Assembly (NCBI GenBank): GCA_947501325.1
Contig: CANMVC010000002.1
Span: 620,001-684,000 of the forward strand
Length of the DNA stretch: 64,000 nt
Direction: 5' to 3'
Source: an uncultured Sphingomonadaceae bacterium
GTDB taxonomy: Bacteria; Pseudomonadota; Alphaproteobacteria; Sphingomonadales; Sphingomonadaceae
Under the pieces are notes generated by a model, which worked only from the letters and a program-made list of their open reading frames with translations, was not told where the DNA came from and searched no databases. Position numbers and translations under genes: made by a program. Below, in pieces: positions 35,685-42,649 of the stretch (the first letter of the stretch is position 1; every line of letters starts with the position of its first letter).

Positions 35685-38624
35685 ATGACATTAGATAAAA
35701 ATTTCGACCCGGCGGCCATTGAAGCGCGCTGGTATGCACATTGGGAAAAGTCCGGCCAGTTTCGCCCTGAACGCGGCGATGCGGAGCCTTTTACGATCGT
35801 CAATCCGCCGCCCAATGTCACCGGAAGTTTGCACATTGGTCACGCGCTCGACAATACACTCCAGGATATCATCATCCGCCATGAACGGCTGAAGGGCAAG
35901 GATGCGCTTTGGGTTGTTGGCATGGACCATGCCGGCATTGCCACCCAGATGGTTGTCGAAAGGCAGATGGAAGAGCGGCAGGACAAGCGTACCAATTATA
36001 CGCGCGAAGAATTTGTCGAAAAAGTCTGGGAATGGAAAGAGGAATCCGGCGGCGCGATCACCGGACAGCTCCGCCGTCTCGGCTGTTCAATGGACTGGTC
36101 CAACGAGCGCTTCACCATGGACGATGGCATGAACGAAGCCGTGCTCAAGGTGTTTGTCGATCTTTATAATGACGGCCTGATCTATCGCGACAAGCGATTG
36201 GTGAACTGGGACCCGGCGCTGAAAACCGCGATTTCCGATCTGGAAGTTGAGACTGTCGATACAAAAGGCAGCTTCTGGCATTTCAAATATCCGCTGGCCG
36301 ATGGTGTGACACTGGACCACCCAGATTTTAGGGGCCAGGACTTTATCGAAGTCGCCACCACCCGGCCCGAAACGATGCTCGCCGATATGGCTGTCGCCGT
36401 TCACCCGAGTGACGAGCGCTATCAAAGCGTCATCGGCAAAGAGATTGAGCAACCGATCACCGGACGCCGTTTCAAGATTGTAGCAGACGAACATGCCGAT
36501 CCGGAACTGGGCAGCGGTGCGGTGAAAATTACACCGGGCCATGATTTCAACGATTTCGAGGTCGGAAAACGCGCCGGTTTTGCGGCGGGCGAGATGCTCA
36601 ACATGCTCGATGGTGAAGCCAATGTTTGCCAAAGCGCTGACGGGCTGATTCCGGAAGAATTTATCGGCCTCCACCGGTTCAAGAAAGACGGCGTCGATGG
36701 CGCACGCGAACTGGTGGTGCAGCGGATGAAGGAACTCGGCTGCCTGATCCCGCACGTCACCAAAAACAAGGACGGCGAAACGCAAGAGCATGATGCCGAA
36801 CCACGTACCATTGCGACACCTTTTGGTGATCGCGGCGGTGTGGTAATTGAACCGTGGCTTACCGATCAATGGTATGTCGATGCCGAGACGCTGGCACAGC
36901 CTGCGATTAAAGCCGTGCGCGATGGCAGCATCGAGATTGTTCCCAAGACCTGGGAAAAGACCTGGTTCAACTGGATGGAAAATATCCAGCCCTGGTGTGT
37001 GTCGCGCCAACTTTGGTGGGGACACCGGATACCGGCCTGGTTTGACGATGCTGGCAAAATCTATGTCGCGGAAGATGAAGCCGCCGCGCAGAAACAGGCC
37101 GGTGAAGGTGTCGCGCTTACCCGCGATCCCGATGTGCTCGACACATGGTTCTCCTCTGCCCTTTGGCCCTTTGGTACCCTAGGTTGGCCGGAAGATATGG
37201 TGCCAGAAAAGCCCTCTCCCCTTCAGGGGAGAGGGTTGGGAGAGGGGGAGTCTCACGATGCTTCCGATACCCCCCTCTCCCCGGCCCTCTCCCCTGAAGG
37301 GGAGAGGGAGAGGATGGTTCCCCGTCCCGGCTCTGATCTCGAACGCCACTACCCGAACGACCTGCTGATCTCAGGCTTTGATATCCTGTTCTTCTGGGAC
37401 GCCCGGATGGCGATGCAGGGCATCCAGTTTATGAAGGATGTGCCTTGGAAGCGGCTCTATCTCCACGGGCTGGTGCGGGCCGAAGACGGCTCGAAAATGT
37501 CCAAGTCCAAGGGCAATGTGGTGGATCCGCTCGGCCTGATTGATCAATATGGCGCGGATGCGCTGCGTTTCTTCATGGCGGCAATGGAAAGCCAGGGCCG
37601 CGATATCAAGATGGATGACAAGCGGGTTGAAGGCTATCGCAACTTTGCGACCAAGCTCTGGAACGCCTCGCGCTTCTGTGAAGTGAACGGCATTGGCGCG
37701 AGCAAGACTCTGCGCGCACCAGAGGCTAAGCTGCCCGTCAACCGCTGGATCATTTCCGAGGTGACCGAAACGCTCGCTGCACTCGACAAGGCGCTGGGTG
37801 ATCTGCGCTTTGATGCGGCGGCCAACACGATTTATCATTTCACCTGGGACCGGTTCTGCGACTGGTATCTCGAACTGATCAAACCGATTTTGTCACAAGA
37901 TTCCGTTCATCCTGAGCCTGTCGAAGGATTGGATGGCGCGGCAGATCGTACTTCGACAAGCTCAGCACGAGCGGAGGTTGACGAAACCCGCGCCGTTGCC
38001 GGTTGGGTGCTCGACCAGATCATTGTGATGCTGCACCCGTTCATGCCGTTCATCACCGAAGAATTGTGGCACAGCATGGCTTCCGAAACCGGTGGTCGGA
38101 ACTATGACCTGATCGTCGCGAAATGGCCGGAGCCGAAAGCGGAAATTGATGCTGACGCGAAGGCAGAAGTCGACTGGCTCATCCGCCTGATCTCGGCAAC
38201 CCGTACGGCTAAGGTCGAACTCAACATCGCGCCGGGGACCAAGATGACCGCCCATGTGCGCGATGGCGATGATGCCCTGCAGGAACGGATTGCGCGGCAG
38301 TCTTCGGCTCTGGATCGTGTAGGTCGTTTGGAGAGTTTCTCCTTCGACCCGGCCCCTGAGGGCGCGACCGCACAAATCGTTATCGATGGCGCAACCTATG
38401 TCCTGCCATTGGCTGGCGCGATAGACATTGATGCGGAAAAAGCGCGACTGAACAAAGCGCTGGAAGCCGTGTCCAAGGAAGCCAAGTCGCTTGAAGGCCG
38501 TCTCGGCAACGCCAATTTTGTCGAGAAGGCCAAACCGGAAGCGGTTGAAAAAGCCCGGGCCGACCTGGCTGACAAAAGCGCGGAAGCCGAACGGTTACAA
38601 GCCGCGCTTGACCGTTTGGGGTGA
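35685..38624 (+). CDS. valS: valine--tRNA ligase carrying two in-frame palindromic-element insertions
   Basis: ValS charges tRNA-Val. The class I motifs are HIGH-type ([10 protein letters not shown], with [15 protein letters not shown]) and KMSKS ([11 protein letters not shown]). An editing domain lies between ([18 protein letters not shown]). Anticodon-binding and C-terminal coiled-coil regions ([20 protein letters not shown]) complete it. The 979-residue length exceeds the usual 870-950. Two extra stretches explain the excess: about 35 residues between LGWPED and ERHYPND ([14 protein letters not shown] ... [12 protein letters not shown]) and about 27 residues after LIKPILS ([13 protein letters not shown] ... 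[13 protein letters not shown]). Both are palindromic DNA elements read in frame, and no stop or shift results. Confidence 0.96.
37212..37308. repeat. REPIN-like palindromic element inside valS
   Basis: Two hairpins face each other: CCCTCTCCCC-TTCA-GGGGAGAGGG at the left and CCCTCTCCCC-TGAA-GGGGAGAGGG at the right, each a perfect 10-base stem. The flanking bases (TTGGGAGAGGGGG at left, matching in inverse the CCCCCTCTCCCCGG before the right hairpin) extend the large inverted repeat to about 37 bases. The doublet is read in frame in valS. Short similar octamers ATGGTGCC (from 37198) and ATGGTTCC (from 37314) flank it and may be a degenerate target duplication. Confidence 0.9.
37901..37976. repeat. 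second palindromic element inside valS (HPEPVEG type)
   Basis: Arms of 29 bases, 37901-37929 (CCTGAGCCTGTCGAAGGAT at its end) and 37948-37976 (starting GTACTTCGACAAGCTCAGCA), are inverted copies with 22 of 29 matches and an 18-base centre. Read in frame it gives SVHPEPVEG ... TSTSSARAE. The sequence family is unrelated to the element at 37212 and is of a type common between genes in sphingomonads. Confidence 0.85.
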
Positions 38625-38627
38625 TGA

Positions 38628-39125
38628 TTTCACGCGAAGAGCGCCAAGATTTTTAAGAGGGCAGTTTGGAAGTCGATCTTGAGGATATCGCCAGCCGGGT
38701 CATTGATGTGGCTATGGGGGTTCATATTGATTTGGGGCCGGGCTTGCTGGAATCGGTTTATGAGCAGGTTCTTGCTAACCGATTGCACAAGCAAGGCCTG
38801 AAGGTTGACCGGCAGATGCCGGTCGGTACGCGGATTGACGGTTTGGATTTTCCCGACGCATTTCGTGCAGACATATTGGTGCAGGACAGATTGCTGCTGG
38901 AAATTAAAGCCGTGGAACGGCTTTCTCCTATTCACACCCGCCAGACTCTAACCTATCTGCGACTCATGAAGCTGCCATTGGGACTACTTATCAATTTCGG
39001 CGGCATCACCTTGAAAGAAGGACTCAAACGCGTAGCGAACAACTACCGCCTGCCCTGATCCGCTAACCATCAATCTCAAGATCTTTCGCTAACTTTTTCA
39101 AAATCTTAGCGCGCTTTGCGTGAAA
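38628..39125. mobile_element. GxxExxY cassette bounded by inverted repeats (copy 1)
   Basis: The GxxExxY gene lies between a left repeat at 38628-38664 (TTTCACGCGAAGAGCGCC...) and a right repeat at 39085-39125 ending TTTGCGTGAAA, which is the inverse of the left. Left and right share the outer 8 bases exactly and AAGATTTT at the same distance. The same left and right repeats recur around a shortened copy at 39164-39396. No transposase is inside, so movement in trans is inferred. Confidence 0.6.
38666..39058 (+). CDS. GxxExxY family protein (PDDEXK-like fold)
   Basis: A 130-residue GxxExxY protein: GPGLLESVYEQVLANRL carries the name motif (GLLESVY), with DRQMPVGTRIDG, an acidic core ADILVQDRLLLEIKAVERL and TYLRLMKLPLGLLINFG. 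The fold is related to PDDEXK nucleases (D in RADILV, ExK as EIK), but no activity is established. The start is TTG 38666, five bases after AAGAGGG. It begins immediately inside the left boundary repeat, so the repeat supplies the ribosome site. It follows valS by 42 bases and is not related to it. Confidence 0.88.
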   Translation: MEVDLEDIASRVIDVAMGVHIDLGPGLLESVYEQVLANRLHKQGLKVDRQMPVGTRIDGLDFPDAFRADILVQDRLLLEIKAVERLSPIHTRQTLTYLRLMKLPLGLLINFGGITLKEGLKRVANNYRLP

Positions 39126-39163
39126 CCCATCCGTAGAGTCATTCTCGCAGGTAGGAGCAGTAG

Positions 39164-39396
39164 TTTCACGCGAAGGACGCTAAGATTCTAAAGAGGGCAG
39201 CTAAGTTTTTGATTTGAAGGGCTTAGCCAGGCGTGTGATTGATACGGCTATCGCCGTGTGTTTAGATTTGAACGATGTCATGTCGCTACAAAGTTTCAAT
39301 CGCGCAGCGAAAAACGACCGCTTACCTTAATCCCTGATAACCAACTGCAAACTCCTTCGCTAACCTCTTCAAAATCCCAGCGCCCTTTGCGTGAAA
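39164..39396. mobile_element. shortened GxxExxY cassette (copy 2, MITE-like)
   Basis: Boundary repeats match copy 1: left 39164-39200 is 32 of 37 identical with 38628-38664, right 39356-39396 is 36 of 41 identical with 39085-39125. The interior is about 155 bases instead of about 420, and retains only the ends of the gene. Copies 1 and 2 lie in direct tandem order 38 bases apart. The rest of the 39059-39475 gap holds a degenerate CTCTCCCCTGGAGGG hairpin near 39440 and no gene. Confidence 0.6.
39205..39330 (+). pseudogene. internally deleted GxxExxY gene remnant
   Basis: The frame from 39205 reads VFDLKGLARRVIDTAIAVCLD, which aligns with the start of copy 1 (VDLEDIASRVIDVAMGVHID), and then ends KNDRLP-stop, matching its end NNYRLP-stop. 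The middle, including the GxxExxY motif and the PDDEXK-like core, is missing. A stop codon (39202-39204) lies directly upstream and no normal start remains. The frame itself is still open across the deletion. Confidence 0.75.
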
Positions 39397-39475
39397 TCAA
39401 TCCACAACTCGGTTCTAGAAAATCCAAGGTGAAATCATTCTCTCCCCTGGAGGGAAGAGCTTTGGCAGGAAATTT

Positions 39476-39913
39476 CTAGTTTGTATCGCCGCGCCGCATT
39501 TTTTCTGCGGCTCTGCGCATTTCCGCTGCGCCCTCGCGCATTTCGGCGGCCCCGCGGCGAAACTCAGGGGCTTGCTTCAACAGCTCGTCCGCCGTCATAT
39601 TCCCTTCGTTCCACTTGTTCCGTTTGGCAGCTTCCGCCTCACGAAAGGCTGCGTCACTTTCCAGTCGGTCGGCATAGGCTTCCATCTTGTCGGCACCGCG
39701 CAGCATTTTTTCTGAGCCTTTTTCCATGCCTATTGCACCTTTAGCCATGCCGTTGGCGACCCTGGCCTCAATCTTCTTGGCCAGGTCTTTGCTCCATTTT
39801 TTGTCGAACTTATGCTCACCATCATGCGCATTGCCGGCGGCGGGCGGAGTTATCGATGCCATGGCTATGACCGCCAGTCCCGCAATTGCTCCCGTAAATT
39901 TTCCATTGGTCAT
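39476..39913 (-). CDS. exported charged helical protein, function unknown
   Basis: A 145-residue protein from ATG 39913, with a signal peptide (AIAGLAVIAMASITPPAAG) and then an almost entirely helical, strongly charged region rich in Ala, Glu, Lys and Met (KGAIGMEKGSEKMLRGADKM and RRGAAEMREGAAEMRRAAEK). The pattern suggests a long amphipathic helix or coiled coil in the periplasm. The open frame extends 11 codons upstream of this ATG. No family is recognised. Confidence 0.75.
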   Translation of the reverse strand: MTNGKFTGAIAGLAVIAMASITPPAAGNAHDGEHKFDKKWSKDLAKKIEARVANGMAKGAIGMEKGSEKMLRGADKMEAYADRLESDAAFREAEAAKRNKWNEGNMTADELLKQAPEFRRGAAEMREGAAEMRRAAEKMRRGDTN

Positions 39914-40043
39914 CTTTGTTCTCCATCCAATCGGACCGGGCATCATGCCCGGTCTATTGACTACAGATGTAATCGAACAGCATGGCTGTGCTATTGCTGT
40001 TCGACCAACAACCTATGAACAAAGACAAAAGTCAGATTTTGGT

Positions 40044-41759
40044 TTAGCGACCCTGGCTTCTCCAGCGCTTGATAACCCGCTGGATAATCTCTTCCTCACC
40101 GCCCTGCTCGCGCCATAGATCAGAGAACATCGGATCTTCGGATGCCGGACGGCGTTCTTCGATCAGCGTGTCGAGCGACACACGGATGGGAATAGCCACA
40201 CCCTCGCCGCAACAGATAATCTCACGGTTTCTGAGGGCAGGAATGGAATCGAGGAAGCCACGTGCGCCCTCTGGCATCGCCGCTTTGACAAAGGCTTGGT
40301 CACGGTCGTTGTTCAGACGCATGGACAGGATGGTACCGCATTGTGAAAGCACGCCCTCGGCCAAATCCGATGGACGCTGCGTAATCAAGCCCAGCGAAAC
40401 GCCATATTTACGGCCTTCCTTGGCGATCCGGCTGAGAATATCGCGGACACTGCTCTCACCGGCAATATCGTCATTGGGAATATAACGGTGAGCCTCTTCG
40501 CAAACCAGCAGGATAGGGCGGCTCGGTTCATTTTTTGCCCAGATGGAATAATCGAATACCAACCGGCTGAGCACCGCGACCACTGTCGGGGTTATCTCGG
40601 AAGGAACCGCTGATACGTCGATGATGGATATCGGTTTGCCTTCCGCGGGAAGACGGAAAATTTTCGACAGAAAGTCCGCCATGGTGTCGCCGACCAACAT
40701 TCCGGAGAACATGAAGCTATAGCGAGGATCGGCTTTGATCTCGTCAATCTTGGTTTTGAGCCGCATGAAAGGTGCGGTATTGGTGGACTTGTCGAGTTTA
40801 CCCATTTCATTCTGGATAATGTTGGTCAGATCGGAAAGCAGATACGGAACCGGGCTATCGACGGTCAGCTTAGCCACACCGGCCGCTGCCTGGCTCTTGG
40901 ACTTGGCCGCGAGCAGGCATTTTGCAAGAATATCGCAATCCATCTGCTTGGCATCACCGGTAGATTGAACGAATACTTCGCAATGTTCGCGAAAGTTCAT
41001 CAGCCAATAGGGCAGATTCAGGTTGTTCACATCGAACAGGCGCCCGTTATTTTTGAACGCGGCGGAATATTCTCCGTGGGGGTCGATCATCAGGATATGA
41101 CCCTCTGGTGCAATATCGCATATTTTGTGAAGGATCAGAGCAGCCGACGTAGACTTACCGGTACCGGTTGAACCCAGCAGCGCAAAATGCTTGCCGAGCA
41201 TGGCGTCAACATAGAGCGCACCGCGAATGTCATCTGTGGGATAAACCGTACCAATTTCAACATTGGCGCGCCCATCTGAGGCATAGACCTGCTTCAGGTC
41301 AGCGGTGGTCACGGCGAAAACAATGGAGCCGGGAACGGGATAACGTGTCACACCGCGGCGGAAATTATAGATATGGCCGGTCAGGCGTTCTTCATCGCCC
41401 TCGCCGAGGAAATCAATCTCTGCGATGATCAGACCGGCTTGGCCTTCATGGAGCTTCTGGGTCCGGATATTGGCGAGCAACCAGGTCTGGCCGACCCGGA
41501 TTTTTACCTGACTGCCAACCTGCCCCGCCATAGTGACAGTCTTATCGGGATGATCACCCAAACCGGCGAGAACCGTCGCATCCATAACGATGCGCGATCC
41601 TGATCCGGCAATCTCTATGACTTCGCCAATTTGATGCCCCTCAGACCGCTTCGGGGTCGACGATGGCGCATGGGTCGCCACTGCTGGTACCACATCTTCG
41701 TCATCGGTCGGAGGAAGCGGTTGTGCCGCTGGAAAATTATGGGAGCCCATATCTGACAT
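40044..41759 (-). CDS. HerA/DUF87-type ATPase
   Basis: A 571-residue ATPase of the HerA/FtsK superfamily. The N-terminal third contains a HAS-barrel-like domain (GEVIEIAGSGSRIVMDATV). The Walker A motif is LLGSTGTGKSTSAA (about residues 190-203), Walker B is PILLVCEEAHRYIP, and the sensor-like LGLITQRPSDLAEGVLSQCGT follows. HerA relatives form hexameric rings that move DNA, in archaea with NurA. No nurA-like nuclease is adjacent here. It is a single gene; function in alphaproteobacteria is not established. Confidence 0.88.
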   Translation of the reverse strand: MSDMGSHNFPAAQPLPPTDDEDVVPAVATHAPSSTPKRSEGHQIGEVIEIAGSGSRIVMDATVLAGLGDHPDKTVTMAGQVGSQVKIRVGQTWLLANIRTQKLHEGQAGLIIAEIDFLGEGDEERLTGHIYNFRRGVTRYPVPGSIVFAVTTADLKQVYASDGRANVEIGTVYPTDDIRGALYVDAMLGKHFALLGSTGTGKSTSAALILHKICDIAPEGHILMIDPHGEYSAAFKNNGRLFDVNNLNLPYWLMNFREHCEVFVQSTGDAKQMDCDILAKCLLAAKSKSQAAAGVAKLTVDSPVPYLLSDLTNIIQNEMGKLDKSTNTAPFMRLKTKIDEIKADPRYSFMFSGMLVGDTMADFLSKIFRLPAEGKPISIIDVSAVPSEITPTVVAVLSRLVFDYSIWAKNEPSRPILLVCEEAHRYIPNDDIAGESSVRDILSRIAKEGRKYGVSLGLITQRPSDLAEGVLSQCGTILSMRLNNDRDQAFVKAAMPEGARGFLDSIPALRNREIICCGEGVAIPIRVSLDTLIEERRPASEDPMFSDLWREQGGEEEIIQRVIKRWRSQGR

Positions 41760-41875
41760 GCAGTCATAATCCTGTATTGTTTATCTAACCCATGGATTAA
41801 GCCGTCATGGTTAAGGATTATTTACCGGCCTTTCAAAAAGGTAAATTGGACTGGAAACCGCCTTTCGAAATCTTT

Positions 41876-42649
41876 CTAAATCTTGCGGAACAGATAGCCG
41901 GCGCCCCAGCCGAATATGATCGAAATAAGCACCGCCAACAAACCATAGATAAAGCCATTTTCCTGAGACAGGTTCGTAATGAAACGCCCCATGCCGATTT
42001 TTTCAATGGTAATATCTTTGATTTCCGCCGCTTCCACGCGCCCATCGATAATCAGAAAAGTCTCCGCAGAATATTCACCCACCGGCACGCTAGCGGGCAG
42101 ATTGATGCGCGCCTGATACAAGACCGAGTCGGTAATCTCGACGCTATTGGGCAAGTTCTTGTAGAGGCTCCCGCGGCTGTTCAGGTCAACGAGACCATTG
42201 GTGAAGCGGGACAGCTCCTGACTCTCTATGGCTCCGGCTGGCGACAGTTGCAGATGATTGAGACCAAGCTCATAGATGTCAGCGGTTTTGTCATCCACAA
42301 TTTCTTCAACGGGCCGTGACGAAGCGACCGCATAAAAGCCTGGGGCGGACCGAAATTCGCTACTTGCAGCATTTATCCATATTCCCGCCACCTGTTGCTT
42401 TTCGCGCAATATGATGGATTTCGTCGGGCCTTTTAAAACAACAACAATATCGGCGCGCTCACGATTGCGAGTTCCCGGTGGATAGGTAATTGCTCCGAAG
42501 AGCAGCAGCTGGGCACCGTTAAAGTCCCCTTTGATGCTGATCTTGTCCTGCGACACATCCGGCACCAATATCGGCGTATTGGCGCTCGCCAGAAACAGGA
42601 TGGCAAGACCACACAGAGCTTTGGTCCATTTTGAAGCCAGACCCGTCAT
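41876..42649 (-). CDS. TIGR02186 / Alph_Pro_TM family membrane-anchored protein
   Basis: A 257-residue protein with an N-terminal signal or anchor (LAILFLASANTPILVP), a beta-rich extracytoplasmic domain (DKISIKGDFNGAQLLLFGAI, DIVVVLKGP, IWINAASSEF) and a C-terminal membrane segment (YGLLAVLISIIFGWGAGYLF). It matches the alphaproteobacterial TIGR02186 family. The ATG overlaps the stop of the TauE/SafE gene (ATGA), a partnership repeated across alphaproteobacteria, so it probably assists export of sulfite or organosulfonates; the mechanism is unknown. Confidence 0.88.
   Translation of the reverse strand: MTGLASKWTKALCGLAILFLASANTPILVPDVSQDKISIKGDFNGAQLLLFGAITYPPGTRNRERADIVVVLKGPTKSIILREKQQVAGIWINAASSEFRSAPGFYAVASSRPVEEIVDDKTADIYELGLNHLQLSPAGAIESQELSRFTNGLVDLNSRGSLYKNLPNSVEITDSVLYQARINLPASVPVGEYSAETFLIIDGRVEAAEIKDITIEKIGMGRFITNLSQENGFIYGLLAVLISIIFGWGAGYLFRKI

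Follow-up and report, generated by a model that had tools for sequence, protein, structure and literature searches.

Repetitive extragenic palindromes (REPs) and their REP-associated tyrosine transposases (RAYTs) are the closest described systems to the element reported here. According to the parts of PMC2817692 and PMC3116915 accessible to us, a resident enzyme gene lies between two inverted palindromic repeats, the repeats are specific to the lineage, and repeat pairs without the gene occur elsewhere; the same part of PMC2817692 gives the usual number of REPs as over 100 per genome. A second group, the CGTC-tagged REPs, consists of dispersed palindromes found mainly in Alphaproteobacteria and without a known transposase, having a stem of 8-9 bp, a loop of 4-5 nucleotides (nt) and a CGTC tag (PMC3733652, accessible in part). 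We have analysed a stretch of 64,000 nt from an uncultured Sphingomonadaceae bacterium, hereafter the window, in which a gene of the GxxExxY family stands between inverted repeats directly downstream of valS. Together with gene-less palindromes in related genomes, this repeat-bracketed arrangement looks like an undescribed mobile-repeat system. We regard it as evenly balanced whether the system is REP/RAYT-like, that is, a resident PD-(D/E)XK nuclease gene between palindromic repeats with gene-less palindromes elsewhere. An earlier note on the window, made from the sequence alone, had proposed an undescribed element. No description of GxxExxY genes with repeats was found in open-access papers, a scope outside which most subscription papers fall. 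The accessible parts of PMC8934634, PMC12085832 and PMC9756366 merely mention the family.

The upstream neighbour valS (valine-tRNA ligase, named by reading of the protein; 35685..38624, plus strand) served as anchor for the orthologous site, and the first boundary repeat begins 3 bp after its stop codon. The locus holds two units, unit 1 at 38628-39125 (498 bp) and unit 2 at 39164-39396 (233 bp), separated by a spacer at 39126..39163. In unit 1, the GxxExxY gene (38666..39058, plus strand, 130 amino acids, TTG start; supported as an open reading frame and by family profiles) lies between a left repeat at 38628..38664 on the plus strand and a right repeat at 39085..39125, which is the inverse of the left one and is placed on the minus strand. 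In unit 2, the left repeat at 39164..39200 (plus) and the right repeat at 39356..39396 (minus), both found by repeat search and alignment, enclose decayed remnants of a GxxExxY gene (39201..39330, plus), namely its start region and final codons, the middle being deleted, as seen from direct repeats and alignment. A recount of the identities between the units agreed with the earlier note, giving 32/37 for the left repeats and 36/41 for the right repeats, and the inverse relation that it had described within each unit amounts to 29/37 positions between the left repeat and the reverse complement of the right. Two direct repeats (107 nt, 70%; 79 nt, 73%) and two inverted pairs (42 nt, 76%; 36 nt, 83%) came out of an independent repeat search. 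The note had also called the units a tandem, which is overstated. About 265 bp are gone from the middle of unit 2 in the alignment with unit 1, the start region and last codons being kept; the shortened second unit also occurs in three relatives (G019, G020, G021), and three others (G014, G017, G027) have a single unit only. Unit 2 is therefore an old internal-deletion derivative and no second cassette, and two equal tandem cassettes were ruled out by the alignment.

The repeat in the window is a degenerate array: its left copy in unit 1 holds two octamer-type blocks, CGCGAAG and CGCCAAG, 2 nt apart. The motif AAGAGGG at 38655-38661 within this repeat is by reading a candidate ribosome site for the TTG start, as the earlier note had suggested, and this prediction fits the distance between array and start codon found in relatives (below). 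There was no sign of dispersed boundary-repeat copies in the window's genome when the pattern CACGCRAAGNNCGCNAAG was compared with a reversed control. Without mismatches, the pattern occurs at four places, three at the locus and one elsewhere, the latter by reading a chance match in a coding region; with up to two mismatches it occurs at 26 places, against 32 for the control. Two single triple-octamer matches are present in this genome (C1:141781 and C3:77550).

The gene product is clearly a member of the GxxExxY/PDDEXK_3 family, with 121.8 bits against TIGR04256 (cut-off 35) and 121.6 bits against PF13366 (cut-off 22). Four residues of the window protein, E29 of the GxxExxY motif together with D69, E79 and K81, are each at least 90% conserved among 68 sequences and from this conservation form a putative active site. 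The structure model (predicted local distance difference test, pLDDT, 93.6) has a PD-(D/E)XK-type fold. Foldseek alone gave no match to the model at E <= 0.001, and no credible sequence match of the protein to a solved structure was found; in a further comparison the nearest solved structures were SSO0001, which we take to be a Cas4-type nuclease, and a restriction enzyme, with Holliday junction resolvases lower down. On the modelled core fold and the acidic-acidic-lysine motif, the protein is placed in the PD-(D/E)XK superfamily as a predicted nuclease, in keeping with the PDDEXK-like protein of the earlier note. An identity as HUH Y1 transposase of the IS200/IS605 type was excluded, the protein matching TIGR04256/PF13366 and modelling as PD-(D/E)XK. 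Some copies in relatives look inactive because motif residues are lost, namely E79 at the valS site of one genome (L003) and both E29 and K81 in two further loci (L021 and L027). Two open frames, L204 (G098:C12) and G101:C40, contain two GxxExxY matches each within 269 and 308 codons, respectively, and are possibly natural tandem fusions. Cargo of phages or plasmids was ruled out as an identity for the gene: no match was present among 50,697 phage records, none was confirmed in two IMG/VR scans, no PHROG matched, and only 7 of 72,556 plasmid records carry one.

A scan of genome contigs with a 14-sequence alignment gave 80 loci, the best of 576 confirmed matches, and 77 of the 80 were usable; a locus was scored when a double octamer stood beside the gene in the expected orientation. 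In relatives an octamer with the consensus R-CGC-N-AAG makes up the repeat array, often in three copies, with CAC replacing CGC or GAG replacing AAG as variants. Such arrays occur on one or both sides of the gene at 66 of the 77 loci (both sides 26, left only 32, right only 8, neither 11). In controls (1540 shuffles and 430 displaced windows) arrays on both sides were never seen and any array in 0.7-1.6%; arrays in the opposite orientation lie beside 17 of the 77 loci. By phylum, arrays were found at 38/40 loci in Pseudomonadota, 9/10 in Verrucomicrobiota, 3/7 in Thermodesulfobacteriota, 3/3 in Chloroflexota, 2/2 in both Planctomycetota and Sumerlaeota, 1/2 in Bacteroidota, 0/2 in Gemmatimonadota and 1/1 in each of Cyanobacteriota, Ignavibacteriota, Binatota and Actinomycetota, with 4/5 among unplaced records. 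This makes 11 of the 12 named phyla sampled. The single Actinomycetota record (L085) is doubtful; its protein clusters with one of Sphingomonas, and it therefore seems to be a sphingomonad under a wrong name. Three Geobacter-like records (L111, L116, L133) carry, by eye, arrays of CGCAACG and not CGCNAAG, which the pattern missed. These counts support inverted boundary repeats as a general property of GxxExxY genes.

Around the gene the arrays stand in inverted orientation, and most genes have arrays of a single class. On the protein tree, the octamer class switches 17 times, compared with a mean of 42.8 after shuffling; the class thus follows the GxxExxY protein lineage. From the end of the left array to the first in-frame start codon the median distance is 8 nt, with at most 25 nt in 52 of the 61 loci having a left array, and the left array therefore probably shapes translation.

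Gene-less arrays are present in the relatives as hairpins of about 70 nt. The triple octamer with at most one mismatch gave 403 matches in 98 relatives, against 43 for the reversed pattern. When 20 places were read in two genomes (G012 and G025), 16 had the two inverted arms of a short hairpin and the other four a single arm or a degenerate second arm. The arms are about 25 nt long with up to three octamers, as in L223 (GGGCTCGCACGAAGACACGAAG ... CTTCGTGTCTTCGTGCGAGTCCC), and the outer ends are CTCGCACGAAG or TCACGCGAAG. Three gene-less units fold strongly; L223 forms 28 pairs with an 8-nt loop and L232 an outer stem of 18 pairs. In one orthologous spacer scored in 26 species, nine lack a unit (spacer 14-52 bp), six have a CAC hairpin, three a CGC hairpin and eight an unrelated element. 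Hairpins thus come and go, as the same spacer holds a unit, none, or one of the other class, and some are common to species 18% apart in valS. An open-frame test did not separate hairpin units from controls, and their extragenic location for this reason rests on the one orthologous spacer. The unrelated element in that spacer resembles a miniature inverted-repeat transposable element (MITE), with the ends CCTTCTCCC...GAGAAGG and GGGAGAGG; the eight spacers holding it, which include that of the window's genome, measure 181-272 bp (L250, L252, L253, L254, L255, L256, L259 of G000, and L262).

Arrays were then counted by genome, all totals including the arrays that flank the gene itself. Within the genus of the window, CAC arrays number 4-35 in the 12 genomes with a CAC-type gene and 0-9 in the 20 without; the nine belong to G008, a genome 82% complete, and the four of G023 are the flanks of its own gene. 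In the genus, the rule that CAC arrays go with the CAC-type gene holds. Among the 98 relatives, more arrays occur where there is any gene match (p 3e-8, a value that ignores kinship and counts remnants as gene), and in the phylum sample of 199 genomes an excess of five or more is seen in 15/30 gene-bearing genomes against 8/169 others. The earlier note had proposed a search for whether the boundary repeats always bracket GxxExxY genes, and had named their wide occurrence without the gene as a ground for giving up its reading. The bracketing is general, as counted above, and gene-less arrays do occur in relatives, though in a manner that suggests a REP-like system and not the absence of any system.

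Array-bracketed genes occupy different genomic neighbourhoods in different lineages. A position upstream of a fabG-like gene accounts for 30 of the 80 loci, nearly all Sphingomonadales by record title; often no array was seen on the right there, and the pattern suggests vertical descent at a single site. In the genus of the window, the gene follows valS in the same orientation in 7 of 30 genomes read. In a further one (G009; L009, L054) the GxxExxY gene of the valS 3' spacer is turned the other way and its matched frame contains one stop codon; a gene-less repeat pair of a TTTCGCGC variant stands on either side of it. In G006 only a left end remains. At a second site, the CAC-flanked gene is found at one orthologous position in all 12 species with a CAC-type gene found, one copy being truncated and one interrupted by a contig end. 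At a third, the gene precedes a gene starting MTNPADMVPFAKTMG. In G012 one gene is flanked by CAC arrays and another, on a different contig, by CGC arrays; both classes also occur elsewhere in that genome. Each gene lineage in the genus is mostly fixed at its site. Comparison of 40 regions from seven multi-copy genomes showed no sign of recent transposition or duplication of the gene: the copies are divergent, 66-73% identical over gene-sized or shorter stretches, with two further short matches of 37 nt (86%) and 92 nt (82%). Of the mobile-like cassette put forward in the earlier note, the boundary repeats and the lineage-specific neighbourhoods stand. Movement of the gene as a cassette is not supported: the CAC-type gene keeps a single site in 12 species, copies within a genome are divergent, and no empty site with a target duplication was found. 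The comparison of occupied and empty sites that the note had proposed could be made at the valS site and one hairpin site, 30 loci each, and no target duplication was found there, the flanks being too diverged.

Three valS 3' spacers without the cassette, in G024 (L039), G030 (L040) and G011 (L042), by reading contain a repeat resembling CGTC-tagged REPs, CGTCATCCTGAACTTGATTCAG and variants. The valS gene of the window itself holds an in-frame inverted repeat at 37212-37308 with 43-nt arms, 81% complementary (CCCTCTCCCC...GGGGAGAGGG), and a second repeat-like insert read in frame at about 37906-37970 (CATCCTGAGCCTGTCGAAGG...CTTCGACAAGCTCAGC). Of the 29 other valS sequences in the genus, 28 lack the residues of the second insert at this position, where G007 has a different insert. 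The palindrome of the window's second insert was seen by eye, and the repeat search found no inverted pair there.

A mechanism is proposed because the organisation matches that of RAYT/REP systems. The gene for the GxxExxY protein stands between inverted arrays of the cognate octamer; the protein would recognise the array, probably as a hairpin, a cruciform or paired inverted arrays, and would cut or nick the DNA at that point. Palindromes without the gene, each a short pair of inverted arrays, would then be moved or copied in trans into intergenic DNA. The gene would mostly stay in place and pass on by vertical descent, apart from occasional transfers between lineages; unit 2 of the window would be a gene-less derivative formed by internal deletion beside its parent. 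By this analogy, we infer both that the protein binds or cuts octamer arrays and that the nuclease causes the spread of hairpins. In its widest form, GxxExxY proteins would be non-HUH repeat-cognate nucleases that recognise octamer-array palindromes and spread them in many phyla, as an independent invention of the REP/RAYT principle; this we hold tentatively, at somewhat short of even confidence.

The main rival is that another transposase, a RAYT or one of an insertion sequence (IS), spreads the hairpins, and that GxxExxY is a passenger captured between two of them, travelling by homologous recombination between dispersed copies. We consider this unlikely, though a serious contender, and several observations that weigh against our own proposal speak for it. 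Hairpin arrays without a detected gene are present in G006, G032 and G264, unlike the situation in RAYT/REP systems, and the highest array count of the phylum sample, 144, belongs to a genome in which no gene was detected. Half of the gene-bearing genomes in that sample have no excess of arrays, and f29, the family in which the gene is commonest, shows no association, an excess being present in 11/22 gene-bearing genomes against 6/17 others. Against the proposal we also count that an excess of six is lacking in 16/30 gene-bearing genomes of the 98 relatives and present in 4/68 others, that CGC arrays in the genus fit gene presence less well, that common descent of gene and flanks would yield the same pattern of class and lineage, and that no target duplication was found at the two sites compared. 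A captured gene should nevertheless take the repeat class of its host, yet class and protein lineage go together; within the genus, CAC arrays accompany the CAC-type gene, and arrays beside the gene in so many phyla, Actinomycetota being doubtful, are much to ask of a random passenger.

Two other explanations appear improbable to us. If the arrays were terminators, RNA stabilisers or a ribosome-site module, the scattered hairpins would be similar terminators and not mobile. The closeness of the left array to the start codon, with its probable effect on translation, and the strong folding of the three gene-less units agree with such a role, which leaves unexplained why one orthologous spacer has the unit present, absent or of another class, why the gene has its arrays in inverted orientation and mostly of a single class, and why a terminator should conserve an octamer sequence that it has no need of. 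We give equally little credence to GxxExxY as a guard, a structure-specific nuclease limiting the repeats, and not spreading them, by trimming the cruciforms or hairpins that they form, a role that likewise would not account for the position of the gene inside a repeat pair.

The only name that the widespread GxxExxY genes have is that of a motif. If the arrays are the substrate, a large orphan family gains a function that can be tested and a widespread class of intergenic hairpins gains a maker; REP/RAYT-type repeat systems may then have arisen more than once from unrelated nucleases.

Among known systems, the library descriptions of TIGR04256 and PF13366, as far as accessible, give neither function nor repeats. 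The PDDEXK protein associated with defence-associated reverse transcriptases (DRT) has a weak profile match to the window protein (E 2.2e-5, residues 36-100), but by reading no reverse transcriptase was recognised among the open reading frames of 36000-42500, not all of which were searched against families. Like MITEs, the octamer units are short gene-less inverted repeats, and unit 2 is an internal-deletion derivative; unlike them, they have no DDE transposase as parent and no target duplication was found for them. With the CGTC-tagged REPs, as described in the accessible part of PMC3733652, they share dispersal, mainly the same bacterial class and the lack of a known transposase, whereas their arms of about 25 nt, their outer ends and the stems of L223 and L232 differ from the short CGTC-tagged hairpin. 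The two look like different families because the CGTC-like repeat occupies the valS spacer where the cassette is absent. The system differs from RAYT/REP in its enzyme, a PD-(D/E)XK protein (PF13366) in place of an HUH Y1 transposase, in its repeat, an octamer array in which no GTAG tag was seen by reading, and in repeat number, triple-array matches being 0-35 per genome in the genus and reaching 144 in the phylum sample. In common with RAYT/REP, as far as the accessible parts of PMC2817692 and PMC3116915 describe it, it has an enzyme gene between inverted repeats (here octamer arrays, on both sides at 26 of 77 loci and on one side at 40 more), a resident gene in distinct single copies with a repeat class that tracks the protein lineage, and gene-less repeat pairs dispersed in the genome.
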